A stretch of DNA of 64,000 bases, taken from an uncultured Flavobacteriaceae bacterium. Lineage in GTDB: Bacteria; Bacteroidota; Bacteroidia; Flavobacteriales; Flavobacteriaceae. Of this stretch, positions 9,955 through 39,352 are shown one piece after another. The stretch covers positions 682,001-746,000 of the forward strand of contig CANNBV010000001.1 in the NCBI GenBank assembly GCA_947502975.1, in the 5' to 3' direction. Made by a program: the position numbers and the translations under genes. The notes below the pieces were generated by a model that did no database searches, had not been told where the DNA came from, and saw nothing but the letters and a program-made list of their open reading frames with translations. Every line of letters begins with the position of its first letter. The stretch's first letter is position 1.

Positions 9955-10040
9955 TTGGGCGTTCCCCTAAAGGGTCGGGCTTTCACTACTCAATCCCTCC
10001 TACGTCGGGGATTTCAAACATGCCGTTCAATCCCTAACGC
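9955..10040 (+). repeat. Variable-hairpin intergenic repeat, copy A
   Basis: It begins TTGGGCGTTCCCC, continues with GGGTCGGGCTTTC and ends CATGCCGTTCAATCCCTAACGC-type sequence (core CAATCCCTAACGC at 10028-10040). Between these lies a copy-specific hairpin, AATCCC then 10 bases then GGGATT (10003-10016 region). A short terminal inverted repeat GCGTT/AACGC is present. Lies between the convergent dgt and GH16 genes. A 64-codon open frame crossing it (9955-10149) is not a gene. Confidence 0.75.
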
Positions 10041-10132
10041 GGTGTATGTTTGCTGGCGTTTGGATATTAGACTTTGTTCTGGAATATCAATATTGAAATA
10101 TAAAACTGATGTTGTCAAATTTATTAGTGAAT

Positions 10133-10993
10133 TTACTGATAAATCCTAACATAATCCACCACCATTGCGCTTTCAGAAAATGAAGGAACAATTTTGAATT
10201 GAATAGCAATATTTAGTAGTACATATTGGTCGGTAGTAAACGGCCATGTATTTTTATTTTTTCGTTTTGGGTGGTATTTATAATGTTCTATCCCATCTAC
10301 ACTAAATGTTATTTCATCTTTAGTCCATTCCGCAACATAAGTATGAAATTCAGTAGATACATTTTCTACCGTTCTACCACCTAAATTTTCAACATAATCC
10401 CCATAACTAGCGCCTGTATGAAGTGCACTTTGTACAAAATTTTGTTTACTACCCCAATGCTCCAAAATATCAATTTCCCCACATTTTGGCCACTTAGACT
10501 TTCCAAAACCTTGTGTTTCCCAATACGCTCCTTTTTCGTTGATGGTTTTATTCAGCATCCATATGGCAGGCCATGTGCCAATACCTTCAGGTAATTTTGC
10601 CCTAACTTCAATACGTCCATAAGTAAACGCAAATTTTGAATTTAATCTAGCAGAGGTATATTTTTTTGTATGCCCTTGGTCTTTAAAGGTCTCCTTTTTA
10701 GCCACAATATGTAAAAATCCATCTTTTACAAATGAATTATCTACTCTATTGGTATAATGCTGCACTTCATTATTATACCAGCTTCCATGAGGCGGCAACT
10801 TGGTTTGATGAAACCATTTCGTAGTATCAATAGCACCATCCCCATCAAATTCATCAGACCAAACGAGGGTTTCAAATTTTGAATTACTCAGAACATTAGT
10901 AATTCCAACATCTTCCGTAGTATTAAAAATTTGGAATGCAAAAAAAGGTAAGCCGATTATAATGAGAATAACTATGTATACATGCCTTTTCAT
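10133..10993 (-). CDS. Glycoside hydrolase family 16 beta-glucanase (laminarinase type)
   Basis: 286 residues from ATG 10993. An upstream open extension to 11110 would be translated repeat sequence and would bury the signal peptide. The first 22 residues form a signal/anchor segment (MKRHVYIVILIIIGLPFFAF). The GH16 catalytic motif is intact as E173-I-D175-I-L-E178, the bulged ExDxxE form usual in laminarinases and other beta-1,3-glucanases. Substrate-side aromatics are present (GTWPAIWMLN; AYWETQGFG). It would cleave beta-glucans in the periplasm or outside the cell. No T9SS domain, CBM or lipobox is visible, and it does not sit in a polysaccharide-utilisation cluster. Exact substrate (laminarin, mixed-linkage glucan or other) cannot be told from sequence alone. 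Confidence 0.9.
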   Translation of the reverse strand: MKRHVYIVILIIIGLPFFAFQIFNTTEDVGITNVLSNSKFETLVWSDEFDGDGAIDTTKWFHQTKLPPHGSWYNNEVQHYTNRVDNSFVKDGFLHIVAKKETFKDQGHTKKYTSARLNSKFAFTYGRIEVRAKLPEGIGTWPAIWMLNKTINEKGAYWETQGFGKSKWPKCGEIDILEHWGSKQNFVQSALHTGASYGDYVENLGGRTVENVSTEFHTYVAEWTKDEITFSVDGIEHYKYHPKRKNKNTWPFTTDQYVLLNIAIQFKIVPSFSESAMVVDYVRIYQ

Positions 10994-11078
10994 TATGATT
11001 GAGAGATTTAGCTTAATAAATATTGTTTTTAAAGATAAGTAATTTGTATCAAGAATAAGAATTTCTCTGTGCTTACTT

Positions 11079-11115
11079 GTTCTCGATATATCGCGTCTTG
11101 ACCAAGACATCAGAA
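11079..11115. repeat. Hairpin sequence upstream of the GH16 gene
   Basis: GTTCT at 11079-11083 is complementary to AGAAC at 11111-11115. Inside lie CGATATATCG and the tight stem GTCTTG/CAAGAC (11095-11108). The TTCTCGAT word resembles another dispersed flavobacterial repeat seen at about 17349. No function is known. Confidence 0.4.
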
Positions 11116-11133
11116 CAGATAGATGGAATAGTA

Positions 11134-12888
11134 TTATTGTATTAGGCTTCGAAAAATAGTGCTAAGACTCTTTGAATCTAACTCAGCTAAAGCCTGTAAC
11201 TCCTTCACACTGCCATGTTCCACAAACTTATCAGGAATCCCCAAAGTTTTAATAGTGTTTTTGTAGTGATATCTTGCAGCAAATTCTAAAATAGCAGATC
11301 CAAAACCACCCTTTACAGTATTGTCTTCAACTGTAACAATTATGTCATGAGTTTTAAAAATATCATGAAGTAATTCTTCGTCTAAAGGTTTTATAAAGCG
11401 CATATCATAATGCGATACCTCTAAATTAATAATGGCCTTGGTTACGTTTTTAGCAATAGCGCCAATACTTAAAATTGCCAATTGCTGACCTTGTTTTAGT
11501 GGTTTGCCTTTACCGATTTCTAGTTTTGAAAACGGTTGTTTCCAATCCAAAGTTATACCACGTCCACGAGGATAACGAATAGCAATAGGTTGTTCTAATC
11601 CTAATTGTGAAGTGTACATGATGTTACGCAATTCCACTTCATTTCGTGGCGCAAAAATAATAAGGTTTGGGATACATCGTAAATATGACATGTCAAAAAC
11701 GCCATGGTGTGTGGCACCATCTTCACCAACCAATCCAGCACGATCTAAGCAAAATATAACAGGCAAATTTTGTAACGCTACATCATGAATTATCTGATCA
11801 TAAGCTCTTTGTAAAAACGTGGAGTAAATATTACAAAACGGAATTAATCCTTGGGTTGCCATACCTGCAGCTAGTGTAACAGCGTGCTGTTCGGCAATCC
11901 CCACATCAAAAGCCCGGTCTGGAATCTCGTCCATCATATATTTTAAGGAACTTCCTGTTGGCATTGCAGGAGTAATACCTACAATCTTTTCGTTTTGTTT
12001 TGCGAGTTCAACTATGGTATGTCCAAAAACATCTTGATATTTTGGCGGCAATACCTCGGCAGACTTTGCAGCTAAATCTCCAGTTTTGGCATCAAATTTT
12101 CCAGGGGCATGGTATTTTACTTGGTCGGCTTCTGCTTGTTTTAAACCTTTACCTTTGGTGGTAATAATATGTAATAATTTTGGTCCCCCAACAGTTTTCA
12201 GGCGTTCTAGTTCTGAAATAATTTTATCCAAGTCATGACCATCAATAGGTCCCGAATAATCAAAATTCAACGCCTCAATAATGTTGTTACGCTTTTGAGT
12301 ACCTTTTTTGACGTTGGTTAAATATTGCTTTAAAGCACCAACACTTGGATCTATACCAATGGCATTATCATTTAAAATCACTAACAAGTTTGCATCGGTT
12401 ACTCCTGCATGGTTTAAACCTTCAAATGCCATCCCGCTAGCTATGGATGCATCTCCAATAACTGCTACATGGTGTTTGTTTTCTCCTTTTAATTTAGAAG
12501 CAATAGCCATACCCAAAGCTGCAGAAATAGAAGTAGAGGAGTGTCCAACACCAAAAGCATCAAATTCACTTTCGCTACGTTTTGGGAATCCACTAATACC
12601 TTTTAGCTGCCTGTTAGTGTGAAAAATATCTTTACGTCCCGTTAAAATTTTATGCCCATACGCTTGATGTCCAACATCCCACAATAATAGGTCATCAGGC
12701 GTGTTAAATACATAATGCAGCGCTATGGTAAGTTCTATAACACCTAAGCTAGCACCCAAATGACCTTCTTTTGTGGCGACTATGTTGATGATAAATTCGC
12801 GTAATTCTTGAGCCAATTGAGTAAGGTCTTCTTGTTTTAAGAGACGAAGTTTACTAGGATAGTCAATATGATCTAACAACTTTTTTTT
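11134..12888 (-). CDS. dxs: 1-deoxy-D-xylulose-5-phosphate synthase
   Basis: First enzyme of the MEP isoprenoid pathway: thiamine-diphosphate-dependent condensation of pyruvate and glyceraldehyde 3-phosphate. The TPP motif runs from GDASIASGMAFEGLNHAG to NDN. The transketolase pyrimidine-binding region is visible (VGIAEQHAVTLAAGMA), and a C-terminal transketolase domain follows. About 584-590 residues is normal length. Start choice: the frame opens at a TTG at 12906, but a perfect -7 box (TACTTTTG, 12897-12904, minus strand) overlaps that codon. Translation therefore more likely begins at GTG 12888, or TTG 12876, close to the transcript's 5' end. It feeds the isoprenoid genes elsewhere in the window (29163 and uppS). 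Confidence 0.92.
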   Translation of the reverse strand, partial: KKKLLDHIDYPSKLRLLKQEDLTQLAQELREFIINIVATKEGHLGASLGVIELTIALHYVFNTPDDLLLWDVGHQAYGHKILTGRKDIFHTNRQLKGISGFPKRSESEFDAFGVGHSSTSISAALGMAIASKLKGENKHHVAVIGDASIASGMAFEGLNHAGVTDANLLVILNDNAIGIDPSVGALKQYLTNVKKGTQKRNNIIEALNFDYSGPIDGHDLDKIISELERLKTVGGPKLLHIITTKGKGLKQAEADQVKYHAPGKFDAKTGDLAAKSAEVLPPKYQDVFGHTIVELAKQNEKIVGITPAMPTGSSLKYMMDEIPDRAFDVGIAEQHAVTLAAGMATQGLIPFCNIYSTFLQRAYDQIIHDVALQNLPVIFCLDRAGLVGEDGATHHGVFDMSYLRCIPNLIIFAPRNEVELRNIMYTSQLGLEQPIAIRYPRGRGITLDWKQPFSKLEIGKGKPLKQGQQLAILSIGAIAKNVTKAIINLEVSHYDMRFIKPLDEELLHDIFKTHDIIVTVEDNTVKGGFGSAILEFAARYHYKNTIKTLGIPDKFVEHGSVKELQALAELDSKSLSTIFRSLIQ

Positions 12889-12896
12889 CACAAAAC

Positions 12897-12904
12897 AAAA
12901 GTAC
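12897..12904 (-). promoter_or_regulatory. -7 promoter box of dxs
   Basis: TACTTTTG on the minus strand matches TAnnTTTG. A TTG lies 22 bp upstream. The GTG start follows the box by 8 bases, so the leader is very short. Confidence 0.5.
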
Positions 12905-13004
12905 AAGATTTTATAATCTTATATTCAAAATCTGATCCTAACTACCCTTAAATTGCTGCAAGTATTTACAAAACTACTTGTGTCTTCAAAAAAGAAAAAG
13001 AAAA

Positions 13005-15749
13005 ATGAAACGGATAAGTATGAAATACGTGCTACCTATTATTGCCATATTGTCTGTGATATGGGCAGAGGCACAACAAAAATTACCTGCTTCTAAATAC
13101 GGATCGAGGCTTTACGATTATTTAAATACAAATAAAAACATGCAGCATTTATCTAAAACAGATATGGCTGATATTTATTTAGATAATGAATCATATTCAA
13201 AGAAAACTGGTGTTACACATAGTTATTTACATCAATCTTATAAAGGTATAAAGATATTTAATGCCATATCTAATGCAGCTATTAAAGATGATAAAGTACT
13301 TTTTTTTAAAGATAATTTTGAGGCTAACATACAACAACGCATTAATGCTATTACACCTTCAATAAGTGCTTTACAAGCTATTAAAAATGTAGCAAATCAT
13401 TTTGAATTAGAACTAAAAGGATCTTTAGATTTATTATCATCAATACATCATAAAAATATATATTCTAAAGGAAGTTTATCTCAAGAAGACATTGTTGTAG
13501 AATTAGTGTACTGTAAGGTTGAAAACGGAACATTAAAACTGTCTTGGGATTTGGATATTTATACGTTAGATGGATCTCATTGGTATAGTGTACGTGTCGA
13601 TGCACTTGACGGAAAAATTTTAGAGGTGCACGATTGGGTGATACAGTGTAGTTTCGATCATACAATAAACCATAATCATTCCCATATTCATAAACTAAAA
13701 GAAAATGCTTCTATTGACTTATTCAAGCCTAACTTTCTAGCAGCTGATAATTCGCAATACAACGTATTGCCATTACCGATTGAGAGCCCCAACCATGGTA
13801 ACTTTCAAATAGTAAGTGAGCCAGCTGATGTATTAGCATCTCCTTTTGGGTGGCATGATACAAATGGTGTTGTTGGAGCTGAACATACGATCACCAGAGG
13901 AAATAATGTGTGGGCTCAGGATGATATAGATGGTAATAATACAACAGATGGAAGTGCACCAGATGGAAATTTAAATTTGAATTTTAATTTGCCTCTTAAC
14001 ACTTTAAATCAACCAGCGCAAAATTATTTAGATGTAGCAACAGTCAATTTATTTTACCATAATAATGTGGCGCACGATATATTGTATCGACATGGGTTCG
14101 ATGAATCTAACGGGAATTTTCAATTTAATAATTACGGAAACGGAGGACGAGAAGGAGATAATGTAATTGCTCAATCGCAAGATGGATCTGGAGTAAATAA
14201 TGCAAACTTTGCAACACCACCAGATGGTAGATCTCCAAGAATGCAGATGTTTTTGTGGACACCAAACAACAATAACGGTAATATTGCACCAGATAATTTA
14301 TCTGTTTCTGGAGGAACTGTAGCAGGAAACTACGGGTCTGTAAAACCTTCCACAGGAAACGGGGCAGATGGCATAGGTAATATAACAGGGCCTTCTACAA
14401 CACCCGTTGTTGGAACTTTAGCAGTTGTGAATGATGGAGGTGTTATACCAGAAGAAGGCTGTAGTGCTTTAATAAATTCGGCAGATATTGCAGGTAAGAT
14501 TGCGATAATTAGAAGAGGTACTTGCGCATTCACACAAAAAATTCAAAATGCTCAAGATGCGGGAGCTATCGGAGTTATTATAGCAAATCATAATAATCCA
14601 ACTAACGATCCTAACTATGTGCCGTATGTGAATATGTATGGTGTAACTGATCCTGCATTTACAATTCCTTCAATATTCATTAATTATGAAGATGGAGAAA
14701 CTATCATAAATGCTATAGAAAACGGAGAGTCATTAACTGCTACTATTGTAGATAATGGACCATTTCTTATAGATTCTAGTTTTGATAATGGTATTATAAT
14801 TCATGAGTATGCACATGGTATTTCTACACGATTGACAGGAGGAGTGTCAAATTCTGGATGTCTACAAAATAACTTTCAAATGGGAGAAGGATGGTCTGAT
14901 TGGTTTGCCCTTATGTTTACTATGAAGGCGACAGATATTGGAACAGACGGTAGAGGTATAGGTACATTTGCTAGTGGAGAAGCCACTAATGGTCTAGGTA
15001 TACGCACAAGGCAATACAGTACAGATTTTTCTATAAACGAATATACATTTGAAGCTACCAATGATGATAGGGTGGTTGGAACAGATCCTGATACAGGAGA
15101 TGATATAAGATTAAATGAAATAGTACATTACAATGGCACTATTTGGGCTACCATGTTATGGGATTTAACGTGGGCATATATTGATAAATTTGGTTTTGAT
15201 CCTGATTTTTACAATGGTACCGGAGGTAACAATAGAGTGTTAGAATTAGTTATAGAAGGTTTAAAACTGCAAGGATGTAATCCAGATTTTATTGATGGTA
15301 GAGATGGTTTATTGGCTGCGGATACCGCTTTGACAGGTGGAGAAAACCAATGCTTAATCTGGGAGGTATTTGCAAAAAGAGGTTTGGGGGTTGCGGCTTC
15401 AAGAGGAGAACTAGATGTTTTTAATGATCAGGTTGAGGATTTTAATACTCCAGATCCTTCTGATGCTAGTTTAGCTAACTGCTCTACATTAAGTACAGAA
15501 GACATTGAAGAAAATATATTTAAGATATTTCCGAATCCTGCTAGAAATACAGTCACCGTTACTACACAAGGAAATCTTGATAACGTTAGGTTTAACTTAT
15601 TTGATATTAATGGTAGGCAGGTGCTTTCACAAACTTCAAATACACCAAGACGTACAACTATAGATATTAGTGCATTACAATCTGGAATTTATGTTATGCA
15701 GATTGAGAGCAATACTGTTACTATGACAAGGAAATTGATTAAGAATTAA
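13005..15749 (+). CDS. Secreted M36 (fungalysin-type) metalloprotease with PA insert and T9SS sorting domain
   Basis: 914 residues from ATG 13005 (the frame opens upstream at a TTG). Order: signal peptide (ending WAEAQ), FTP-type propeptide (about 30-220), and an M36 catalytic domain interrupted by a protease-associated domain (about 440-580, with IAIIRRGTCAFTQKIQNAQDAGA). The zinc site is H600-E-Y-A-H604, with the third ligand in the following GEGWSDWF. A C-terminal T9SS type A domain is present (KIFPNPARNTVTV to MQIESNTVTMTRKLIKN). The enzyme would be exported through the Por system, activated by removal of the propeptide, and used to digest extracellular protein. Monocistronic; divergent from dxs. 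Confidence 0.95.
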   Translation: MKRISMKYVLPIIAILSVIWAEAQQKLPASKYGSRLYDYLNTNKNMQHLSKTDMADIYLDNESYSKKTGVTHSYLHQSYKGIKIFNAISNAAIKDDKVLFFKDNFEANIQQRINAITPSISALQAIKNVANHFELELKGSLDLLSSIHHKNIYSKGSLSQEDIVVELVYCKVENGTLKLSWDLDIYTLDGSHWYSVRVDALDGKILEVHDWVIQCSFDHTINHNHSHIHKLKENASIDLFKPNFLAADNSQYNVLPLPIESPNHGNFQIVSEPADVLASPFGWHDTNGVVGAEHTITRGNNVWAQDDIDGNNTTDGSAPDGNLNLNFNLPLNTLNQPAQNYLDVATVNLFYHNNVAHDILYRHGFDESNGNFQFNNYGNGGREGDNVIAQSQDGSGVNNANFATPPDGRSPRMQMFLWTPNNNNGNIAPDNLSVSGGTVAGNYGSVKPSTGNGADGIGNITGPSTTPVVGTLAVVNDGGVIPEEGCSALINSADIAGKIAIIRRGTCAFTQKIQNAQDAGAIGVIIANHNNPTNDPNYVPYVNMYGVTDPAFTIPSIFINYEDGETIINAIENGESLTATIVDNGPFLIDSSFDNGIIIHEYAHGISTRLTGGVSNSGCLQNNFQMGEGWSDWFALMFTMKATDIGTDGRGIGTFASGEATNGLGIRTRQYSTDFSINEYTFEATNDDRVVGTDPDTGDDIRLNEIVHYNGTIWATMLWDLTWAYIDKFGFDPDFYNGTGGNNRVLELVIEGLKLQGCNPDFIDGRDGLLAADTALTGGENQCLIWEVFAKRGLGVAASRGELDVFNDQVEDFNTPDPSDASLANCSTLSTEDIEENIFKIFPNPARNTVTVTTQGNLDNVRFNLFDINGRQVLSQTSNTPRRTTIDISALQSGIYVMQIESNTVTMTRKLIKN

Positions 15750-15756
15750 TTGGATA

Positions 15757-16776
15757 TTATTCAATATTAAAAACTATAGGTAACGTATAAACTACTACAA
15801 CAGGTTTTCCGTTTTGTGTAGCTGGAATAAAATTTGGCAATAATTCAACGGTTCGTATAGCTTCTTTTTCTAATGTTGGATGAGGAGCCCGTGCTTTTAC
15901 ATTTTGTAGATTTCCTAAAGTGTCTATTTGGAATTGTACAAAAACTTTTTGCTTTCCTGTTAAATCTTGACAAACGGATGTGTTAAAATTATCCCTTACA
16001 ATTTTTGAAATACCTTTTGAAAGATAATCACGTTTTTTTGTTATAGATAAATTTCTTGGCGTGTTTTTGAATTCTGGTGGGTTTTTCACAATTTGTATAG
16101 GAATTGGCTCATTAGGATTGATTTCAGGTATGACTATTCCAACTGTTGCAATTTCTCCCTCAATGTCTACGATTGGTGGTTCAATAACTGGTATAGAATC
16201 GGGATGTTTTGTAAAAGACTCATCTTTATTAGCATTAGTATCTATATCTCCAACAGTTTTTATGATAAAACCGTCAAGTGTTATTTCTTCAACGATATTA
16301 TCTGAAGGTTCGTTTTTTGATGATGTACAAACAGGCTTTAGAATAGAATCCATTTTTTCAATAACAGGTATACCTTCTAATACATTTACTACTTTATTAT
16401 TATTTAAAGTATCTATAACTTCGATACTATCAATTTTTTGTGAATTACCATTCTTGTTGGTACAATTAAAAAGTGTAGTACCCATAGTAATTAATAAGGC
16501 TAGTAAAAATAGCTTATGAAAATTAAGGTTTTGCTCTAATACTTTTGAAGGAACGTGCAAATTGATACTATCTAATTGTATTTGTTTGAAATGTCCACAA
16601 ATGTTTTTTTGTTTATTTTGATGTATAAAATCTTGAATTTCAACCGTATTCATTTTAGTGAAATCAATCACTGTTTTTGAGCAGGAACTGCAAAACTTTC
16701 CTTTTTCTCTTGGAGACATTTGATTCCAATCTTCGTGACAAGGCTCAGGTATAGCAATAGAATAGTATGTTTTCAT
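15757..16776 (-). CDS. TonB-like protein with N-terminal Cys-rich domain
   Basis: 339 residues. The N-terminus is a small domain with Cys13, Cys29, Cys32 and Cys60-G-H, spaced like a zinc-binding fold (PCHEDWNQMSPREKGKFC). One membrane segment follows at about 88-104 (LFLLALLITMGTTLFNC), then a long Pro/Ile/Glu-rich spacer. The C-terminal TonB_C domain (about 260-339) carries VFVQFQIDTLGNLQNVKAR and the P-N-F-I-P-A strand. The topology suggests a cytoplasmic Cys-rich head and a periplasmic TonB arm that could energise outer-membrane receptors, but no exbBD lies nearby. The same head occurs on other Bacteroidota proteins, and its role is not known to me. It converges on the M36 protease gene with a 7-bp gap. 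Confidence 0.85.
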   Translation of the reverse strand: MKTYYSIAIPEPCHEDWNQMSPREKGKFCSSCSKTVIDFTKMNTVEIQDFIHQNKQKNICGHFKQIQLDSINLHVPSKVLEQNLNFHKLFLLALLITMGTTLFNCTNKNGNSQKIDSIEVIDTLNNNKVVNVLEGIPVIEKMDSILKPVCTSSKNEPSDNIVEEITLDGFIIKTVGDIDTNANKDESFTKHPDSIPVIEPPIVDIEGEIATVGIVIPEINPNEPIPIQIVKNPPEFKNTPRNLSITKKRDYLSKGISKIVRDNFNTSVCQDLTGKQKVFVQFQIDTLGNLQNVKARAPHPTLEKEAIRTVELLPNFIPATQNGKPVVVVYTLPIVFNIE

Positions 16777-16810
16777 GAGTTAATAGCTTTCTGTAAGAGC
16801 ATCAAACTTC

Positions 16811-16840
16811 TTGCCGAAGTAAATTGAAATTGTATTTTTG
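16811..16840 (+). promoter_or_regulatory. tadA promoter, probably giving a leaderless mRNA
   Basis: TTG 16811-16813 and TATTTTTG 16833-16840 have a 19-bp spacer. The ATG at 16846 begins only 5 bases after the -7 box, where transcription is expected to start. Confidence 0.65.
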
Positions 16841-16845
16841 TTTTT

Positions 16846-17295
16846 ATGATAGAACCTTTTGATGACTCATATTTTATGAAGAAAGCCCTCAATGAAGCTG
16901 AAATGGCTTTTGAAAAGGGTGAAATTCCTGTGGGTGCAGTTATTGTTATTGATAATAAGATTATTGCACGTGGGCATAACTTAACCGAGCAATTAACTGA
17001 TGTTACTGCTCATGCCGAAATGCAAGCGATAACTGCTGCAGCAAATTTTTTAGGTGGTAAATATTTAAAAGGTTGTACGTTGTATGTGACTTTAGAACCT
17101 TGTCAAATGTGTGCTGGAGCTTTGTATTGGAGTCAGGTTTCTAGAATAGTGTATGGTGCTAGAGATGTGGAACGCGGTTGTATTAATTTGAAAACGAAAC
17201 TGCACCCCAAAACTAAGATTGAAGGTGGTGTTTTAGCAGATGAGGCTAGTGCTTTATTAAAACGCTTTTTTATTATGAAACGTAATTTGAATTGA
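16846..17295 (+). CDS. tadA: tRNA-specific adenosine-34 deaminase
   Basis: 149 residues. Converts A34 to inosine in tRNA-Arg(ACG) so that it reads CGU, CGC and CGA. The zinc-dependent cytidine deaminase fold is complete: HAE (catalytic Glu) in VTAHAEMQAI and PCxxC in LEPCQMCAGAL. The C-terminal LLKRFFIMKR helix is typical. Single gene, divergent from the TonB-like gene. No frame disruption. Confidence 0.95.
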   Translation: MIEPFDDSYFMKKALNEAEMAFEKGEIPVGAVIVIDNKIIARGHNLTEQLTDVTAHAEMQAITAAANFLGGKYLKGCTLYVTLEPCQMCAGALYWSQVSRIVYGARDVERGCINLKTKLHPKTKIEGGVLADEASALLKRFFIMKRNLN

Positions 17296-17348
17296 CCTTG
17301 TCGACTTGAACAGACAGGAATTGAAGACTTTTAATGATAGAAATTGTT

Positions 17349-17395
17349 CTCGATACGATTTCTCATACTTCGAAATCACTCGAACTGAGATAGTT
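17349..17395. repeat. Dispersed flavobacterial repeat fragment
   Basis: The words TTCTCGATACGATTTCTCAT and TCACTCGAACTGAGA, arranged as an imperfect inverted repeat, resemble sequence scattered in flavobacterial intergenic DNA. Related short fragments occur at about 11079, 22168 (TTTTCGACTGCGCTTAGGGT) and 51984. Possibly remnants of a small mobile element. Confidence 0.35.
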
Positions 17396-17441
17396 TGGTT
17401 ATCTAAAAGTTGAGGTTTTGAAACTTAGATGGCAGATAAGT

Positions 17442-17530
17442 GCGTTAGGGATTGAACGGCATGTGGAGCTCCTGACGAAGGAAGAGCGACTAGTGAAAGC
17501 CCGACCCGACCTTAGGAGGGGAACGCCCAA
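17442..17530 (-). repeat. Variable-hairpin intergenic repeat, copy B
   Basis: Reverse orientation to copy A. Constant end GGGGAACGCCCAA (17518-17530) lies 4 bp from the stop of the small gene at 17535, and the other constant end GCGTTAGGGATTG is at 17442-17454. The centre differs from copy A but again can pair (on the minus strand GCTC, TCCT and AGGAGC around TTCGTC). Confidence 0.75.
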
Positions 17531-17534
17531 ATAT

Positions 17535-17771: not shown

Positions 17772-17775
17772 GACG

Positions 17776-30487: not shown

Positions 30488-30561
30488 TCTGTTAAGGAAC
30501 TATTGTTGTAAAAATGGTAGGCTTAGTGATCTAACCTAAATTTAAGTTGGTAGGTGCAAAA

Positions 30562-30630
30562 GCGATAGTAACGGTTAGCTTTTGGTGAGGTGCGCATCGA
30601 ACCAAAACTATGAGTGGATAGCGCGGTGGC
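30562..30630 (-). repeat. Variable-hairpin intergenic repeat, copy E (degraded)
   Basis: Matches the central hairpin of copy C in reverse orientation (TAGCTTTTGGTGAGG, CGCATCGAACCAAAACTAT, GAGTGGATAGC), but the outer constant ends are eroded: the GGGGAACGCCC end is replaced by GCGCGGTGGCTTGCC. Lies 21 bp beyond the stop of the barrel gene at 30651. Confidence 0.6.
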
Positions 30631-30650
30631 TTGCCATTTGCCATAAAAAA

Positions 30651-31422: not shown

Positions 31423-33024
31423 TTAATCTAAAATAATGAACTCTACACGTCTGTTTTCTTGTAGCTCTTTGTCTGTGCAATTAGTTTTACAATCTATTTT
31501 TGGTTGCGATTCACCAAAACCCCTAAATTCTAGTCTTTCTTTCTCGATACCATTTTGTATCAAAAACTTAACTGCAGAAGCAGCACGTTTATCAGATAAA
31601 TTTAAATTGTAAGCTGCTCTACCTTTATTGTCTGTATGTGCATTGATAGATAGTTTCATTTCAGGGTTTTCAGTTAGCACAGAAACAATTTTGTTTAATG
31701 AGATATGAGATTCCTCTTTAAGACTCCATTTAGCAGAGTCAAAATAAATATTCTCTATTACTATGGCTAATTTTTCATTTACTTTCTCAATTTTAGGCGC
31801 TGTAGTTTCGAGTTCTAAATTTTTAGAATATGTGGTTTCAAAACCTTTGCTAGCACTAAAGTTGAAGGTTTCATTTACATAACCATCTTTTTCTGTACTT
31901 ATAGTGTATTCTTCAAAAGGTAAAACATTAAAATTAAAAGCTCCGTTGTTGTCCGTAAGTTGTTTTGCAACCTCGTTACCATCTTCATCTTTTAAAACAA
32001 CTACAGTATTTGGTAAGTGTATTTGACTATCAGAATGTACAACGAATCCGTTTAAAGATTGTTTTACTTCATCATTAATGGCGATATACATATCATAACT
32101 GCCTTTTCCATTTGGTCTGTTAGAAGACAAATATCCTTTGTTTCTTGAGGCTAAAAAATAGGCTACTTCATCGTGAGCTGTATTAATGGTATTACCCATA
32201 TTTCGTGGTGCTTTAACACCTTTTTCAAGTATTCTACTCACAAAAATGTCATAACCACCTATGTTTTCATGCCCGTTTGAAGAAAAATACAAATACACAC
32301 CATCTAAAGATAAAGACGGGTATTTTTCATCCGAAGGCGTATTTACATTAGGGCCTAAGTTGGTAGCTGGACCTAGTGAGCCATCACTTTTAATGTCAGC
32401 AACATAAATGTCGTAACCACCGTAGGAATTACTCATGTTTGCAGAAAAATAGATTTTCTCACCTTTAGGGTCTACAAATGGGTTTTCGATTGAAACGTTA
32501 TTCTCATTAACGGATAATAACTTATGGTTGATCCAATTACCATGAGAATCTTCTTCTAAATCTGCTTTGTATAATTTATATTCTAGAGAATTACCTTTGT
32601 CGCTTCGTGTAAAGAAAACAGTTTTCTGGTCTGGTGTAAATGTTAATTGATCTTCACTATTATTAGTATTCAATATTCTTGAGAATAGTAAAGGCGAACT
32701 TAAACTTCCATTTTCTTTTATGTCTAAACAGAATAAATCTTTGTAAGCTTCATTGGTATTTGGGTCAATTTTTGCAAGTGCACCAATTTTTTTTGAAGAG
32801 ACCATAATGAGTTTATCCATGAAAAAACCAGAGCCAAATTCTGAGTATTTCGAATTAACATCTGTGTTAATTATTTCAAAATTAAAACCGTTGTTATCTA
32901 TTTCAGCAGACGATGTTGAGGTTATATCGTTATTTATATCGTTTTCCGCAATTAACTCCGATGGACCTTGACTGAAAGCAAAACTAAAGGATAGCAAAAT
33001 GAATGCAAGTACATTAGTCTTCAT
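31423..33024 (-). CDS. OmpA-family protein with PD40 beta-propeller and carboxypeptidase-like domain
   Basis: 533 residues: signal peptide (ending SFAFSQ), WD40-like PD40 repeats (about 60-310; KIYFSANMSNSYGGYDIYVA and YLYFSSNGHENIGGYDIFVS), a carboxypeptidase-regulatory-like domain (about 325-400), and a C-terminal OmpA peptidoglycan-binding domain (about 420-533; INAHTDNKGRAAYNLNLSDK and RRVEFIIL). Probably tethers outer-membrane complexes to peptidoglycan. Similar architecture is found in T9SS-associated PorE-like proteins and in PorP/SprF-linked OmpA proteins. No PorP/SprF gene is adjacent, so a T9SS role is only possible. Confidence 0.9.
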   Translation of the reverse strand: MKTNVLAFILLSFSFAFSQGPSELIAENDINNDITSTSSAEIDNNGFNFEIINTDVNSKYSEFGSGFFMDKLIMVSSKKIGALAKIDPNTNEAYKDLFCLDIKENGSLSSPLLFSRILNTNNSEDQLTFTPDQKTVFFTRSDKGNSLEYKLYKADLEEDSHGNWINHKLLSVNENNVSIENPFVDPKGEKIYFSANMSNSYGGYDIYVADIKSDGSLGPATNLGPNVNTPSDEKYPSLSLDGVYLYFSSNGHENIGGYDIFVSRILEKGVKAPRNMGNTINTAHDEVAYFLASRNKGYLSSNRPNGKGSYDMYIAINDEVKQSLNGFVVHSDSQIHLPNTVVVLKDEDGNEVAKQLTDNNGAFNFNVLPFEEYTISTEKDGYVNETFNFSASKGFETTYSKNLELETTAPKIEKVNEKLAIVIENIYFDSAKWSLKEESHISLNKIVSVLTENPEMKLSINAHTDNKGRAAYNLNLSDKRAASAVKFLIQNGIEKERLEFRGFGESQPKIDCKTNCTDKELQENRRVEFIILD

Positions 33025-33158
33025 ATTTTGAGGGTATTAGTTGATTAACAAAAGTAAATGTATTATGAAAAAAAGTACTGAGAAATTTTTTTGGATAAAT
33101 CGTATGTAAAAATCGTTAACCTATTGTATTAGAGGGTATTCTCACAATAAGAATGTAT

Positions 33159-34673
33159 TTAAGAGTTTAATTTTAATAATTCGTCGATATAATCTCTTGA
33201 GTTTGAAAGCCTAGGAACTTTATGTTGTCCACCCAATTTATCATTTAATTTTAACCAATCATGAAATAGTTGAGGTCTAGCAATATTAATAGTGGGTTTA
33301 TTTAAAGTGATGTTGTTATAGCGCTTTGCTTCATAATCAGAATTTAAAGATTTCAGGGCATTATCGAATAATTCATTGAAGTAATTAATGTCTTTAGGAG
33401 GTGTTTTAAACTCTATAAGCCATTCATGAGCACCTTTTTCTTTACCTTTCATAAAAATGGGGGCAGCAGTAAAGTCTACAATTTCAGATTTAGTGCGTTT
33501 GCACACATTCTTTAAAGCACTTTCTGCATTTTCAATAATTAATTCTTCACCAAATACATTTATGTGATGTTTGGTTCTACCTGAAATCTTAATGCGATAC
33601 GGATTTAGCGATGTAAAGCGCACAGTGTCACCAATCTTATAACGCCATAACCCTGCATTTGTGGTGATGATTACAGCATAATTCTTATTAAGTTCAACTT
33701 CATCGAGTGGTATTGCTTTTTCTTCTGAAGTTGCATAAATATGCATTGGAATAAATTCATAGAAAATGCCGTAATCTAACATTAACAATAGTTCATCAGA
33801 ATTGTTTTGGTCCTGTATGGCAAAGAAACCTTCTGATGCATTATAAATTTCGTAATATTTAAATTGATTGCTATGAAGTATTTTTTTGTATTGATCTTTG
33901 TAAGGCACAAAACTAACACCTCCATGAAAGTACACCTCTAAATTAGGCCATACCTCCAAAAGGTTTTCTTTTCCAGTAGTTTCTAACACATTGTTTAATA
34001 ATACAAGCATCCAAGATGGTACACCTGCAAGACTCGTTACATTTTCATTAATGGTTTCATCGACAATAGCCTGCATTTTGTGTTCCCAATCACTCATAAG
34101 TGAAACTTTATTGCTGGGAGTACTGCTAAATTCTGCCCAAAACGGCATATTATCAATCAGTATTGCAGATAAATCTCCGAATATCGTACCATTTTCTTTG
34201 TATAATTCTTTACTTCCTCCAAGTCTTAAACTTTTTCCTGTAAATAATTGTGAGTCTTCATTGTTGTTTAAATACATGCACAACAAATCCTTACTGGCTG
34301 CATAGTGGCAGTCTTCTAAAGACTCTTCACTAACAGGAATAAATTTGCTTTTAGCTCTGGTAGTGCCGCTAGATTTTGCGAACCATTTAATTGGTGTTGG
34401 CCAAAAAATATTGTTTTCACCTCTTCGAGAACGTTCAATTACACCTTGCCAACCGTCATAATTTTTAATAGGAACACGTTCAGCAAAGGTTTTGTAATCT
34501 GTAATAGAAGCAAAATCATATTCCTTGCCAATTTCGGTGTTTTTAGCAAAATCAATCAAGCTTAATAATAGCTCATTCTGTACTTCATTGGGGTATTTTA
34601 GAAACAATTCAATTTGATGAAAGCGTTTCTTTAGGAACCATGATGCAATGGAATTAACTAAGGGAATTGGCAT
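33159..34673 (-). CDS. GH3-family acyl-adenylating enzyme
   Basis: 504 residues. Related to the plant GH3/JAR1 adenylate-forming amidosynthetases, which activate a carboxylate with ATP and join it to an amino acid. Nucleotide-binding motifs are recognisable: AKSSGTTRAKSKFIPVS (P-loop, about residue 100) and EIYNASEGFFAIQD (motif 2, about 280), then GLWRYKIGDTVRF and ISGRTKHHINVFGEEL. Bacterial members are common in flavobacteria; their acyl and amine substrates are unknown, and the usual name (auxin-responsive promoter family) is misleading. Single gene, divergent from the DUF2797 gene with 44 bp between start codons. Confidence 0.88.
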   Translation of the reverse strand: MPIPLVNSIASWFLKKRFHQIELFLKYPNEVQNELLLSLIDFAKNTEIGKEYDFASITDYKTFAERVPIKNYDGWQGVIERSRRGENNIFWPTPIKWFAKSSGTTRAKSKFIPVSEESLEDCHYAASKDLLCMYLNNNEDSQLFTGKSLRLGGSKELYKENGTIFGDLSAILIDNMPFWAEFSSTPSNKVSLMSDWEHKMQAIVDETINENVTSLAGVPSWMLVLLNNVLETTGKENLLEVWPNLEVYFHGGVSFVPYKDQYKKILHSNQFKYYEIYNASEGFFAIQDQNNSDELLLMLDYGIFYEFIPMHIYATSEEKAIPLDEVELNKNYAVIITTNAGLWRYKIGDTVRFTSLNPYRIKISGRTKHHINVFGEELIIENAESALKNVCKRTKSEIVDFTAAPIFMKGKEKGAHEWLIEFKTPPKDINYFNELFDNALKSLNSDYEAKRYNNITLNKPTINIARPQLFHDWLKLNDKLGGQHKVPRLSNSRDYIDELLKLNS

Positions 34674-34717
34674 ATTTATGCTATCTTTATTTTTTTAAAA
34701 ATAATACTTTTTTTTAT

Positions 34718-35512
34718 ATGACCTACCAAGGTGTTTTAAGGAAAATGGAAACTGAATTTTCAAATCCTATTCAATATTATTTAGTGTTTGAAAATGACTT
34801 CATTAACATGAATCAATTGCTCAATAAACGTATAAAAATGGAATTTGTAAAGTTTCAATGTTTGAATTGTGGCTTAGACAAACCAATTTATCGACAAGGT
34901 TTTGATAAACAGTGCTTTTATGAAACTGCAAGAGCAGGCGATTGGATTATGCGTCCAGAATTAAGCACAGCACATTTAGGTATAGAAGATAGAGATTTGG
35001 ATTATGAGAAGAAAGCACAATTGCAACCGCATATCGTATATCTTGCAAATTCTAGCAATGTAAAAGTTGGAGTAACACGAAAAAGTCAGGTACCAACCAG
35101 ATGGATTGACCAAGGTGCACATGAAGCTATTGAAATTGTTGAAGTTCCCAACCGTTACTTGGCTGGTATTACAGAAGTAGCTTTAAAAGATTATGTGGCC
35201 GATAAAACCAATTGGCGAAAAATGCTAAAAAATGAAATTGAAGATGAAAATCTGGTAGAATGGCGAGAGCGTTTAAGATCCTACATTCCAGATGAGGCAA
35301 AAGACTATTTTATAGAAAGTAATAGCGAAACTAATTTAGAATTCCCAGTACATAAATATCCAGAAAAACCAAAGAGTTTAAATATTCAAAAAGCTCATAC
35401 TTATGAAGGTACTTTAGTTGGGATAAAAGGACAGTATTTAATTTTTGAAGACGAAACTGTTTTTAATGTTCGAGCTAACGAAGGGTTGGTTTTGGGTATA
35501 TCTGTTATTTAA
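34718..35512 (+). CDS. DUF2797 protein
   Basis: 264 residues from ATG 34718; an open extension to 34667 overlaps the divergent GH3 gene and is not used. The N-terminal region has a Cys pair CLNCG and a later Cys (DKQCFYE), suggesting a metal-binding knuckle. A central GIY-YIG-like stretch (VYLANSSNVKVGVTRKSQVPTRWIDQGA) is characteristic of the DUF2797 family. No characterised function is known to me. It may bind nucleic acid, which is inferred from the GIY-YIG resemblance. Confidence 0.8.
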   Translation: MTYQGVLRKMETEFSNPIQYYLVFENDFINMNQLLNKRIKMEFVKFQCLNCGLDKPIYRQGFDKQCFYETARAGDWIMRPELSTAHLGIEDRDLDYEKKAQLQPHIVYLANSSNVKVGVTRKSQVPTRWIDQGAHEAIEIVEVPNRYLAGITEVALKDYVADKTNWRKMLKNEIEDENLVEWRERLRSYIPDEAKDYFIESNSETNLEFPVHKYPEKPKSLNIQKAHTYEGTLVGIKGQYLIFEDETVFNVRANEGLVLGISVI

Positions 35513-35514
35513 AA

Positions 35515-36138
35515 CTACAGAAAATAAAGCTGTGTACTTTGAATAAGTCCTATAATCATTAAGAGTAAGCCAGTAACTCTATTTAAAATTTGAGTGATAT
35601 TATTTACTTTATTTTTAATAATAACACTCATTCTACTGTAGGCATAAAGTGTAAGTAATTTGCCTAAATATACGCCTGAAAAAAATAAAAATAATACGGA
35701 GAATGAGGATTGTAAGGAGAGCATGAAGTTGTTATTATTTAAAACACCAAAGGCAATAACCCAATAAATTAGAACAGGCGGATTAATAATGCCAAGTATA
35801 AAACCTGTGGTATATTTTGAACGATTGCGTTTCTTTTGATTTGATTTTGAAACCGACTGCTTTTTAAAGAATAAATACCCACCAACAACAAATAATAGGA
35901 CAGCTACTGCTGTTTGCACCCATAGGTGTGTATCAAAGAAACCTTTGATTACTTCATTACAATCTAAAGCATAATAAGATAATAACACTTCTGCAACTCC
36001 AGCAGTTATAGCTATTTTAAATGCCTGTTTTACGTTTTCTCTTAGTGTTGTATTAATAACTGCAATGTTTGAAGCGCCTAATGGTAAGGCACTTAATATT
36101 GTAGCAAAAACGCCTATGAATAAGTAGATGATAATCAT
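35515..36138 (-). CDS. LysE-family amino-acid exporter-like membrane protein
   Basis: 207 residues with six hydrophobic segments. The N-terminal half contains the LysE/RhtB-type ALPLGASNIAVINTTLRENV and the helix-loop IAITAGVAEVLLSYYA; the C-terminal half repeats the pattern (NPPVLIYWVIAFGVL). Such proteins export amino acids or related small molecules across the inner membrane. The substrate cannot be told. Converges on DUF2797 with 2 bp between stop codons. Confidence 0.82.
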   Translation of the reverse strand: MIIIYLFIGVFATILSALPLGASNIAVINTTLRENVKQAFKIAITAGVAEVLLSYYALDCNEVIKGFFDTHLWVQTAVAVLLFVVGGYLFFKKQSVSKSNQKKRNRSKYTTGFILGIINPPVLIYWVIAFGVLNNNNFMLSLQSSFSVLFLFFSGVYLGKLLTLYAYSRMSVIIKNKVNNITQILNRVTGLLLMIIGLIQSTQLYFL

Positions 36139-36225
36139 ATTCTCTTTGTAGTGGAAATATCTAAATACTTACATTTTATTTGAAGATGATTTTAGTATTA
36201 TTGTAAATAAATATTCACGAAAATC

Positions 36226-37209
36226 ATGAAATTTCCATATCATCTTTTGTTATTAATACTTATAGCTAATTTTACTTATTTGCAAAAAGCGATAGCACAA
36301 CAAACGGAAAGATCAATTAGTTATGAACGAAATGATGATAATTCAATAACATTTACGTTCAATAACAGTATACCCGAAAGTGTTTATGTTGTTTTAAAGT
36401 TCGATCAACTAAGTAATACTACAGCAGGTGTTATTAAGAAGAATGTTAGTGGTTTTACGTCGGAGTTAGTTACTCTATTTCCAGATAACCCTAAAAACAG
36501 AATAGGTTTTACTTCATATTCCTACAGAACATTAACAGGAAACATTAATGCTAAGCCCGATATGAATTTTAAGTATGCGTTACCTGTAAAAAGCGGAAAT
36601 GAGATAAAGGTTAGAAATTTAGGTTATTTAGGAAATCGTTTTGGGAATACCGAGCCTAAAAATTGGAAATCGTTTCAGTTTTTAACAAAACCAAATGATA
36701 CTATATACGCCATAAGAAAAGGCATAGTTGTAAAAACTAATGACGGTGAAAGAGCAGAAACTAGAGAAGGTAGAACTTATGGTTATAGAAATAAATCCAA
36801 TTCTATAATAATAGAACATGAAGATGGAACTATTGCTAAATACGATGTGCTCAAAAACAACAGTTTTATGGTAAATATTGGAGATACAGTATACCCTTCT
36901 ACACCTCTAGCAATTGCAGGCTCTTATGATACTGACGAAAATAGCCAGCTTAGGTTAATGATTTACTATTTAGATAATATTGTTAAAGATTTAGATTTTG
37001 ATGCGAAAAGTAAAGAGAAATTTGGAAATACAACACATATCTATGCATACGTAAACCCAATGTTTTATGTGAATTCTAATGGATCTGAAGTTAGAACTTT
37101 AAATGACCTAGAAGCTTATACTGCATACTGCGATTCAGAAATTATTCAGTTTGAAATGCGTAAAAGAGAAAAAAAGCGATGGTTGAAAAGTAAAGCATTG
37201 AAGAAATAA
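36226..37209 (+). CDS. M23/LytM-fold protein, probably catalytically inactive
   Basis: 327 residues with signal peptide (ending KAIAQQ). An N-terminal beta-rich region (about 30-110) is followed by an M23-like lysostaphin fold (about 155-250): YAIRKGIVV, SIIIEHEDGTIAKYDVLKNN, VNIGDTVYPSTPLAIAG. In active M23 peptidases the next strand carries the zinc-binding HxH (HLHFEV-like); here that position reads QLRLMIYYL, so the metal site is lost. The protein is thus likely a structural or regulatory LytM factor, as EnvC/NlpD are for amidases, rather than an endopeptidase. The basic tail RKREKKRWLKSKALKK may bind cell wall polymers. Single gene. Confidence 0.75.
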   Translation: MKFPYHLLLLILIANFTYLQKAIAQQTERSISYERNDDNSITFTFNNSIPESVYVVLKFDQLSNTTAGVIKKNVSGFTSELVTLFPDNPKNRIGFTSYSYRTLTGNINAKPDMNFKYALPVKSGNEIKVRNLGYLGNRFGNTEPKNWKSFQFLTKPNDTIYAIRKGIVVKTNDGERAETREGRTYGYRNKSNSIIIEHEDGTIAKYDVLKNNSFMVNIGDTVYPSTPLAIAGSYDTDENSQLRLMIYYLDNIVKDLDFDAKSKEKFGNTTHIYAYVNPMFYVNSNGSEVRTLNDLEAYTAYCDSEIIQFEMRKREKKRWLKSKALKK

Positions 37210-37212
37210 AAA

Positions 37213-37242
37213 AATCCCGTTCACTACGAAGCAAACGGGATT
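37213..37242. terminator. Terminator between the M23-like gene and rpsU
   Basis: AATCCCGTT (37213-37221) pairs with AACGGGATT (37234-37242). An A tract on the left provides the U tract for rpsU transcripts (minus strand). The plus-strand side has only a weak T run, so it mainly serves rpsU. Confidence 0.8.
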
Positions 37243-37264
37243 GTATATATTAAAAAGGAATAAT

Positions 37265-37459
37265 TTATATATCCTCTTGGTCTCTTAAAGTTTGGATGTA
37301 AGCAGCTTTTTGTATTTCGCGACGTCTCTTTACAGAAGGCTTAGTAAAATACTGGCCATCTCTTAAGTTTTGCATCACTTTAATATTTCTATGTTTACGC
37401 TTGTAACGTTTTAAAGCGCGCTCTATATTTTCACCGTCTTTTACAATAATCTTTAACAT
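37265..37459 (-). CDS. rpsU: 30S ribosomal protein S21
   Basis: 64 residues, normal bacterial S21 length. Basic helical protein (ERALKRYKRKHRNIKVMQNL; KPSVKRRREIQKAAYIQ) that sits near the anti-Shine-Dalgarno region of 16S rRNA. In Bacteroidota, S21 with bS18 and bS6 helps to sequester the anti-Shine-Dalgarno sequence, in keeping with the scarcity of Shine-Dalgarno motifs in this window. Single gene. The 270-bp region to the next gene holds repeat copy C and nothing else evident. Confidence 0.96.
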   Translation of the reverse strand: MLKIIVKDGENIERALKRYKRKHRNIKVMQNLRDGQYFTKPSVKRRREIQKAAYIQTLRDQEDI

Positions 37460-37588
37460 ATATGTAATTTATTTTATTTTAAGCTTTTTCTAAAAGGATT
37501 GCAAATTTCTAATATTTAATTCTAAAAACCTAATTTAAAAGAGCTTTGTTTCAATTCTATTCTAAATATGTTTTTAAAAATTAATTTT

Positions 37589-37684
37589 TTGGGCGTTCCC
37601 CTCCTATAGTCGGGTCGGGCTTTCCGCTAATAGTTTTGGCTCGATGCGTGCCTCGCCAAAAGCTACCACTGCAATCCCTAACGC
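37589..37684 (+). repeat. Variable-hairpin intergenic repeat, copy C (full length)
   Basis: Constant start TTGGGCGTTCCCCTCCTA, then GTCGGGTCGGGCTTTCC; constant end GCAATCCCTAACGC. The centre is a 10-bp-class hairpin, TAGTTTTGGC against GCCAAAAGCTA with loop TCGATGCGTGCCTC. It shares its hairpin with copy E but not with A, B or D. Confidence 0.78.
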
Positions 37685-37730
37685 GGGCGTATTTGCAAAT
37701 GGTATTATTTTTCAAAAATCATAAACATTT

Positions 37731-38474
37731 TTAAAAGTGGTTTTTAAATTCAGATTTTGTTTTTTTATGTTTTTTCCAAGCTATTACTTTTACACCTTTT
37801 GAATATTGAACTATGGTTGGTGAGTTATTAATTAGTTTGCCAAACCGTTGATAATTGAATTCAAATTCTGTGATATCTAGAGTCTGTATTGGCCATTCTA
37901 AATGATGAATTTCAAATTCATTAATGTGATTCTTAGAGTCTTGAAACAAAGCATATCTTTCAGTGAGCCATTTGTCAATAGATTTTTTTTCTTCCACTTT
38001 TTTTCCAATCGTAAATTCAATATTTAAAATATCATCAAGTTTTGAATTACGAGATGTGTATTGGTTTTTAGTTCGTTTCATTTTAGAAAACCTATATGGA
38101 AGCTCAGATAATGCTTTTGCAATTATACAAGATAAGTTTGTGCCGCCTTCAATACTTAAAAAATAAACACCAGTTTTATTATTAGATTTCACATAAGTTC
38201 TAATGTTAATCTCATGGAAATTTGAAATCGGGGGAAAAGGAGGTAAGTGTTTAGGTCTAATATTTTCCATAGTAAATGCAACTACGGAAACCCAAGGGTT
38301 TCCATCAAACACATCAATTTCTAATTCTTGAGGAACAAATTTTTGTAGTTCACTTAAATCAACTTGCCAGTGCAGAAAAATGGCATCATTCCATTCTTGG
38401 TAAAATTTCCAATTCTTATTAGGAATTGGCCATGGTCTGTGATCAGTTGTATTTAAAATCTCTTTAGATTTCAT
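37731..38474 (-). CDS. DUF2071 (YqjF-like) protein
   Basis: 247 residues, cytosolic. Contains family landmarks FYQEWNDAIFLHWQVD, LEIDVFDGNPWVSVVAFTME and NFHEINIRTYVK. DUF2071 proteins have an acetoacetate-decarboxylase-like beta-barrel fold; the physiological reaction is not established. The Lys that forms the Schiff base in true decarboxylases is not obvious here. It follows another minus-strand gene by 28 bp and might be co-transcribed with it. Confidence 0.82.
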   Translation of the reverse strand: MKSKEILNTTDHRPWPIPNKNWKFYQEWNDAIFLHWQVDLSELQKFVPQELEIDVFDGNPWVSVVAFTMENIRPKHLPPFPPISNFHEINIRTYVKSNNKTGVYFLSIEGGTNLSCIIAKALSELPYRFSKMKRTKNQYTSRNSKLDDILNIEFTIGKKVEEKKSIDKWLTERYALFQDSKNHINEFEIHHLEWPIQTLDITEFEFNYQRFGKLINNSPTIVQYSKGVKVIAWKKHKKTKSEFKNHF

Positions 38475-38502
38475 TTATTTCTTAAAATACAAATAGTTTT
38501 AT

Positions 38503-39210
38503 CTATTTAATGTTTTGTATAAACTTTTCATAGTTTTTATTCCAATACTCTTCAATAAATTCCCATTTACCATCCCAATACCCTTCTTCTCTTTTAATAA
38601 ACTTGATTTGATTAATTACTTTATTATTTATTTTGTTTATGTAAATGCCATTCATTTCATCGACACCGCATCCTATTCCCCTTATATTCCCATGTCTAAT
38701 AGCTTTATTTTCTATTATTTCGAATAAATCGCTATCCCAATTACTGTCCGCACAACCACTCCTGTGGTATGAATAATAGTAGTGGGTTCCTTTGATTTTT
38801 ATTGCTGAAGGGAAATTTTCAAAATCCTCAATCTTACTAAAGTTATTTTTTTCAGGATTAAAAATCAACAATTCCTTAATTCCAGGAACATTTGTGATAT
38901 AGTCTAGTAGAACATCTGGAAATCCATCTTCATTAAAATCAGAAAACTCAAATCCAGCAGGACTACTACTGTGATTATAAATAACTTTTCCGTTAGAGTC
39001 TCTTATAGTAAAAACACCTGGTCTTTTTATACACGCATTAAATTTTATTTCATTTATTATTTGTTTTTTACAGTCTAAATAGAGTGGTTTTTCTTTACTT
39101 ATTTCTATTTGTTCAGTAGAAATACTTTCCATTTTTACTTTATTCTCTTTGCAAGAACTAAATAAAATCAGAATAAGAATTATTGATGATGTTTCTATTG
39201 CTTTTCTCAA
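38503..39210 (-). CDS. Lipoprotein with FG-GAP-like motif, hypothetical
   Basis: 235 residues with lipobox LFSSCKEN (Cys 20). The only plausible start is TTG at 39210: the frame has no ATG before the lipobox, and an in-frame stop lies a few codons upstream. The mature part has a calcium-loop-like FSDFNEDGFPDVLLDY (FG-GAP/VCBS type), and Cys residues in SGCADSN and GIGCGVDE. Resembles the XAC2610-like propeller-containing proteins, some of which occur in lysozyme-inhibitor context, but this is only a shape resemblance. Function unknown. Confidence 0.65.
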   Translation of the reverse strand: MRKAIETSSIILILILFSSCKENKVKMESISTEQIEISKEKPLYLDCKKQIINEIKFNACIKRPGVFTIRDSNGKVIYNHSSSPAGFEFSDFNEDGFPDVLLDYITNVPGIKELLIFNPEKNNFSKIEDFENFPSAIKIKGTHYYYSYHRSGCADSNWDSDLFEIIENKAIRHGNIRGIGCGVDEMNGIYINKINNKVINQIKFIKREEGYWDGKWEFIEEYWNKNYEKFIQNIK

Positions 39211-39266
39211 TTTCTGTAAAATAACTTATAAGTTTATATTATAAAACTCAATTGGCAAGTGCACCC

Positions 39267-39352
39267 GCGTTAGCGATTGAAACGGCATCCTTTTTTGTTT
39301 TTTCTACAAAAAAGATATAGTGGAAAGCGCGACCCGCAGGGGAACGCCCAAA
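39267..39352 (-). repeat. Variable-hairpin intergenic repeat, copy D
   Basis: Constant end GGGGAACGCCCAAAG reaches within 3 bp of the AsmA gene's stop codon (39355-39357); the other constant end is GCGTTAGCGATTGAAACGGCAT. The centre is a T/A-rich hairpin (on the minus strand ATCTTTTTTGT against ACAAAAAAGGAT), unlike those of A, B and C. Confidence 0.72.

Follow-up and report, generated by a model that had tools for sequence, protein, structure and literature searches.

Several described families partly resemble the intergenic element that recurs five times (copies A to E) in a 64,000-nucleotide stretch of an uncultured Flavobacteriaceae genome. This stretch, the window, is C1:682001-746000 of host genome G000 (4.55 Mb, 36 contigs), whose genus was inferred to be Hyunsoonleella. 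The closest described family is Flavo-1 (RF01705), which Rfam classes as a small RNA (sRNA). Where Weinberg et al. 2010 (PMC2864571) list Flavo-1, it stands as probably RNA and not cis-regulatory, and in the passages of Guerin et al. 2021 (PMC9723704) on F. psychrophilum its matches lie sense or antisense alike, many of them outside transcribed regions. The GTAG- and CGTC-tagged palindromes known as repetitive extragenic palindromes (REP) and bacterial interspersed mosaic elements (BIME), with their REP-associated tyrosine transposases (RAYT), are likewise short, intergenic, multicopy and palindromic; the sections of PMC3733652 on these palindromes describe a species-dependent abundance of loop variants and do not report swaps at orthologous sites. 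The BOX elements of Streptococcus pneumoniae are, in the parts of PMC3049150 that describe them, composite and modular small interspersed repeats with a predicted stem-loop and a variable inner part, but there the number of boxB units varies, giving length variation at orthologous sites and not exchange of unlike hairpins. No description of hairpin exchange at orthologous sites was found in the literature searched, in a search that was not exhaustive. Double-hairpin elements of mitochondrial DNA are mobile and palindromic and carry two hairpins; the likeness is by description only, and they are mitochondrial. We also considered attC-like recombination sites, whose ends seem to have the opposite polarity.

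The element is a three-way junction: stem P1 (GCGTTA/TAACGC) lies outermost and encloses two hairpins, the long main one (P2) and another (P3). Some species had a copy at a given site and other species lacked it, and at orthologous sites P2, P3 or the hairpin tips often differed, matching hairpins of other copies or dispersed palindromes. We consider it probable that the family consists of non-autonomous, dispersed, intergenic palindromic repeats, and that structure-guided exchange replaces their arms in situ. A preliminary description of the window had proposed cassette-like exchange of a central hairpin, and the P2 type did differ in at least one pair in 24 of 34 orthologous clusters, with flush flanks in several pairs. 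That proposal needed amending in its details, as two hairpins are exchanged, not one, and the exchange is incomplete.

The comparison covered the host and sister genomes G001 to G011, the whole sample of the genus (12 genomes; loci carry L labels). From these, 234 elements were collected (113 in G000, 47 in G003, 42 in G002 and 32 in the remaining genomes) using fuzzy motifs, so that divergent copies such as E lie outside the set. P2 fell into seven recurring types, T1 to T7, assigned with purpose-written regular expressions to 231 elements; the untyped L091 (a real short type), L139 and L208 (both false starts) were excluded from type counts. The P3 class was "other" for 31 of the 234. Orthologous pairs were retained if both flanks were homologous, giving 61 pairs in 34 clusters, and 77 pairs without a two-sided pattern were excluded. 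The clusters represent at most 33 sites, one site (itself labelled T3) having been split into two, and pairs inside one cluster are mutually dependent.

All pairs were concordant in P2 type in the other 10 clusters. Forty of the 61 pairs (24 clusters) had flank alignments that came within 80 nucleotides (nt) of the element on each side, and the P2 type differed in 23 of these 40 pairs, or 14 of the 24 clusters (clusters by eye; one pair includes the untyped L091). Boundaries were flush in L017/L184, T1 versus T2 with a gap of 0 nt on both sides, and in L049/L140, T5 versus T1 with gaps of 1 and 0 nt and a rare P3 class common to both. The P3 class was kept and P2 changed in L048/L332 and in L049/L140/L357; conversely, the P2 type was kept and P3 changed in L086/L294 and in L078 (listed under L175)/L115. 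Among the 53 pairs with both modules classed, P2 and P3 both differed in 27, P2 alone in 11 and P3 alone in 8, and 7 pairs agreed in both. P2 was identical in 1 of 62 orthologous pairs.

Orthologous places were examined for window copies B, D and E; the search for C yielded no match on both flanks, and A lay outside the stretches with which the sister genomes were searched. The site of B carries type T2 and a different P3 in G003 (L305). At the place of D, a T1 hairpin with another tip was found in G003 and T6 hairpins in G004, G006 and G008, reversed in the last two, and all five elements had GCG or GTG paired with CGC at the base; host D is homologous on a single flank and stands outside the counted pairs. 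Alignments of the D flanks ended about 77 nt to the left and 7-17 nt to the right of the element in either orientation, so the unit that differs is longer than the hairpins. Inversion of the element was seen in two clusters. At the place of E, the outer stem and rare base of E recurred in G008 (L146), where the hairpin was T1 and its tip long, and the place was empty in G005, G007 and G011, where both neighbouring genes directly overlap. A rare base was common to the orthologous copies at sites D, T3 and E. A further site, S1, was read in 11 genomes and was filled in G000, G002, G003, G004 and G006 and empty in G001, G005, G007, G009, G010 and G011. Its hairpins, of types T1, T2 and T4, were unlike along the whole stem (by eye), and the extra arm to the left of GCGTTA measured about 45 nt in G000 and 42-43 nt in G003 and G004 and was longer in G002 and G006. 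When S1 of G000 was set against the empty state by eye, a repeat of 8-9 bp, AATTTRTA, appeared that suggests a target-site duplication at this site. Comparison of orthologous intergenic sites returned both filled and empty states and differences of hairpin type.

The two hairpins behaved as nearly independent modules: P2 type and P3 class gave a chi-square of 57.4 with 42 degrees of freedom (permutation p 0.058) over 107 host elements, from a count of 115 in which L019 and L020, false starts typed as "other", lay outside the 107 used. A letter-identical copy elsewhere in the host was found for 30 of 112 host P2s. For 22 of the 112 a letter-identical hairpin was found in G003, and for none in G002, aligned genes among these species being about 75-80% identical. 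Identity of P2 between G000 and G003 despite this gene divergence suggests either that hairpins spread from species to species or that they are strongly constrained. Long tips matched host DNA outside elements (about 143 kb) in 15 of 44 cases, versus 0 of 44 for a backward-read control. The tip palindrome CCCGATAGCTATCGGG was present in 19 of 42 G002 elements, 1 of 47 in G003 and 0 of 113 in the host, and in G002 it occupied hairpins of several types as well as P3. Two elements, L190 and L118, appeared by eye to be stem hybrids, the base being of one type and the tip of a different one.

The consensus of 105 complete host copies read, in order, a weak arm often ending in CCC, P1 GCGTTA, P2, GA, P3, P1 TAACGC and CCCAAAT, with P2 starting GGGATTG and ending AAAGCCC and P3 of the CC..GG type. 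In 57 distinct composite rows, 93.8% of 627 basal-stem cells formed standard pairs, and double changes were found at 7 of 11 pairs (30 cells); these covariation counts ignore relatedness and come from copies gathered via their ends. None of 500 shuffles matched any of five covariation measures, and control structures slid by 1-3 columns paired in just 25-49% of cells. Strong selection for structure over sequence, which the preliminary description had offered beside exchange, is supported by the 30 double-changed cells, and the centres are not diverged versions of one sequence lacking compensatory pairing. Across 231 elements the basal mismatches A.G and G.A were conserved in 229 and 222, respectively, and GT wobbles exceeded AC wobbles by 24 to 8, which suggests that a single strand is folded. 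The middle basal pair was C/G in 16 of the 231. The P1 ends are imperfect short terminal inverted repeats of the kind that defines a miniature inverted-repeat transposable element; 79.7-99.6% of the 231 copies had standard pairs at each position, a figure biased upward because copies were gathered by those ends.

The family is an extended relative of Rfam Flavo-1. The two share the base of the main hairpin and the T1 stem, but the Flavo-1 model has a single hairpin and no P3. Against its threshold of 42 bits, D scored 58.3, E 33.4 and C 32.5, and A and B gave no match up to E 10. The preliminary description could not match the element to a named family; this stands for the unmatched A and B and for the sub-threshold C and E, but D is Flavo-1, so the family is partly named. 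In the host genome the model gave 56 matches at E up to 0.001, with 35 above threshold, versus 125 exact GCGTTAGSGATWG ends, and four of 30 loci read (L001-L004) had another outer part, TAGC..GCTA-like, without P3. Unlike REP and BIME palindromes, the element is a longer three-way junction and has no GTAG or CGTC terminal tag: one end was GGTAACGCCCAAA in the base profile of 105 copies, and the other was GCGTTAGGG by the method of collection.

Further copies proved abundant, with 125 exact left ends (GCGTTAGSGATWG) and 65 TTTGGGCGTTMCCC ends in the host genome and none for either control, the identical pattern read backwards. The element was present in all 12 genomes of the genus, with 8-125 left ends per genome. 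The exact end was also found in 76 of 395 sampled genomes of the phylum, where single matches are uninformative because some genomes give one or two matches to the control and several of the matches read were non-elements. The high counts outside the genus were 43 in G137, 22 in G114 and 15 in G209, and elements bearing P2s of these kinds occurred in other genera (e.g. L270, L272, L273, L279-L281, L283 and L288). G137 belongs to another family of the same class, outside the host's family, and its 43 left ends are known from counting alone; horizontal spread is a possible explanation of the count. In L280, L281 and L283, from other genera of the family, P3 was a very long near-perfect hairpin, GAGAGGC..GCCTCTC, and the copies lay near contig ends.

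Because P3 and the rare base were kept and the boundaries were flush, we infer that hairpins are replaced in place rather than lost and re-inserted. Such replacement would take place at the DNA level, with the folded single strand as its guide. Breakage or stalling at an extruded hairpin may, for example, act as the trigger, after which another copy could serve, through the short constant arms, as the source for ectopic repair or template switching, and both arms of a stem would be swapped together with the fold preserved. A dedicated exchange system, in which a cellular or element-borne enzyme acting on the extruded junction swaps hairpins between copies and perhaps between species, is a doubtful but conceivable variant; if true, the inherited unit would be the fold and not the sequence.

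A number of results weigh against exchange in place. The constant arms beside P2 measure about 12-13 bp, which is short for RecA-type recombination. P2 types at orthologous sites agreed more often than chance predicts (0.353 versus 0.145; a value as high in 1 of 3000 null draws). Most elements at such sites are therefore linked by common descent, and exchange is partial. P3 classes also agreed (0.323 versus 0.155; 24 of 3000 null draws), and the retention on which replacement in place relies was a modest effect: in pairs differing in P2, agreement was 0.271 versus 0.144 for P3 class (116 of 3000) and 0.896 versus 0.805 for the basal GCG variant (133 of 3000). The within-type P2 distance was 0.195 within and 0.202 between genomes (1 of 1000 permutations as large). 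With values so close, and with G003 sharing 22 of the 112 host P2s letter for letter, the data do not establish that donors come purely from within a genome. Ordinary compensatory change could connect types T3, T4 and T5 with one another. In 230 copies target-site duplication was in general no more frequent than in shuffled flanks, and no transposase, donor event or intermediate was observed, the transposase check having covered Y1_Tnp only.

The host has two Y1_Tnp genes, L031 (G000 C4:33021) and L032 (G000 C2:959682). Both are RAYT-like and flanked by palindromes of their own, of the CGCACGAATCCTTTCGTGTGGT and CTAGTTTGTAACTAGTGCC types, which apparently form a separate REP family, and no Flavo-1 match lies near either gene. 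A RAYT or IS200-like gene carrying the element's ends, which the preliminary description had envisaged, found no support: across the genus, 27 Y1_Tnp loci were checked and no element end lay beside any of them (up to 1 mismatch, about 1.5 kb on each side), and copy number did not follow the number of Y1_Tnp matches. RAYT mobilisation was accordingly rejected, the host genes being flanked by other palindromes and the genus-wide check negative. No autonomous element bracketed by the ends was seen among those listed (100 of the 125 on the left and all 65 on the right), and no systematic test was made.

The same transposases might still act in a different way, by inserting REP-like palindromes into single-stranded hairpin loops as the sole source of variety. 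The two host genes and the tips that are other dispersed palindromes speak for this, but the left-end counts do not follow the Y1_Tnp matches at E up to 0.001 (72 ends and no match in G007, 15 and none in G009, nine and six in G010), the 27 loci lack element ends, and insertion alone leaves the whole-stem swaps unexplained; we regard it as quite unlikely. Repeated independent insertion, in which hot-spot sites lose their old element and then receive a new one, bearing a different hairpin, at exactly that place, is in keeping with the filled and empty states of S1 and E and with an element at a comparable place by the same gene in metagenome-assembled genomes of Algibacter (L376) and Flaviramulus (L386). 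Several pairs argue against it in which dissimilar hairpins sit between flanks that are flush to 0-1 nt at either end, as do the rare P3 class retained with differing P2 at two sites and the rare bases common at D, T3 and E, albeit with modest overall statistics. Orthologous elements moreover share P2 type above random expectation, and this account seems rather improbable.

If the hairpins were instead old versions of a single sequence whose shape is held by selection for pairing, compensatory changes in the basal stems would be expected and were found, and at one site type T3 of G000 and G004 differed as AC/GT against GC/GC (L061/L116). However, ordinary divergence sits badly with the 30 host P2s that recur letter for letter at other host sites when orthologous pairs are identical in 1 of 62, and with the S1 hairpins that are unlike along the entire stem, and we hold it very unlikely. 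A functional structured RNA whose distal hairpins are free to vary would account for the basal-stem covariation, for purine mismatches and GT over AC wobbles that suit one strand, for a predicted RNA fold energy that is lower on that strand in 58 of 82 cases, and for the sRNA type given to Flavo-1. On the other hand, the element has no fixed orientation relative to genes: among 192 elements of three genomes, a crude reading-frame test gave 62 + 48 tandem, 46 convergent, 18 divergent and 18 unclear. The F. psychrophilum matches noted above, sense or antisense alike and many of them outside transcribed regions, also count against such an RNA, and more than 100 dispersed copies with presence/absence variation fit a mobile repeat; we think the RNA account unlikely.

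The Flavo-1 relatives in this genus thus look like dispersed DNA repeats, and sRNA surveys that count Flavo-1 may need revision. Exchange of whole hairpins at fixed sites, if true, would leave a natural record of the breakage, repair and homogenisation of palindromic DNA. It would also mean that strong covariation can come from replacing both arms at once, which affects the use of covariation as evidence of RNA function. The repeats offer a natural system for studying the exchange of folded DNA.

Direct reading placed all five window copies where the preliminary description had put them. For A to D it had described constant ends, and a TTTGGGCGTTCCCC end and a CAATCCCTAACGC-type end were seen, altered in D; by these ends A and C lie on the minus strand and B and D on the plus strand. 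The GCGTT/AACGC inverted repeat at the ends and the unlike yet palindromic centres were likewise present. Copy E is real, but its extent had been given too short and was extended through its divergent outer stem. Two parts had been overlooked: the small P3 hairpin (CCC..GGG) adjoining the TTTGGGCGTT end, which is variable too, and a weakly conserved, TTTGGCARATANCCC-like arm outside the opposite end.

Table 1. Copies of the element and associated palindromes, in window coordinates.
Feature	Coordinates	Strand	Description	Basis
Element A	9954..10058	-	P2 type T2 (GAAATCCCC..GGGATTGAG); P3 CCCTTTAGGG; left arm GCCAGC..CACC included	read and parsed
Element B	17429..17533	+	P2 type T3 (GAGCTCC..GAGCGAC); P3 with GACCTTAGGAGG	read and parsed
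Element C	37588..37700	-	P2 type T6 (AGCTTTTGGC..GCCAAAACT)	read and parsed
Element D	39251..39353	+	P2 type T1 (ATCCTTTTTTG..CAAAAAAGAT); rare basal variant GCG/CGC	
Element E	30547..30645 (approximate)	+	P2 type T6; outer stem GCAAA/TTTGC; basal GCG/CGC	
P1 5' strand of D	39267..39272	+	GCGTTA	read
P1 3' strand of D	39342..39347	+	GAACGC	read
Solo dispersed palindrome, adjoins B	17344..17392	.	TTCTCGATACG..ACTCGAACTGA; relative in L023 hairpin tip, 88% over 51 nt, E 1e-11	
Solo dispersed palindrome	52014..52041	.	relatives in P2 tips L008, L010, L063 and one in L175; P3 tips L026, L038, L076, L085, L086, L097	

At two elements of sister genomes, L114 in G002 and L204 in G008, the left flank of one host element met the right flank of another (compared with L101/L029 and L102/L041, respectively, as one-sided matches). 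These arrangements suggest rearrangements with breakpoints at the elements.

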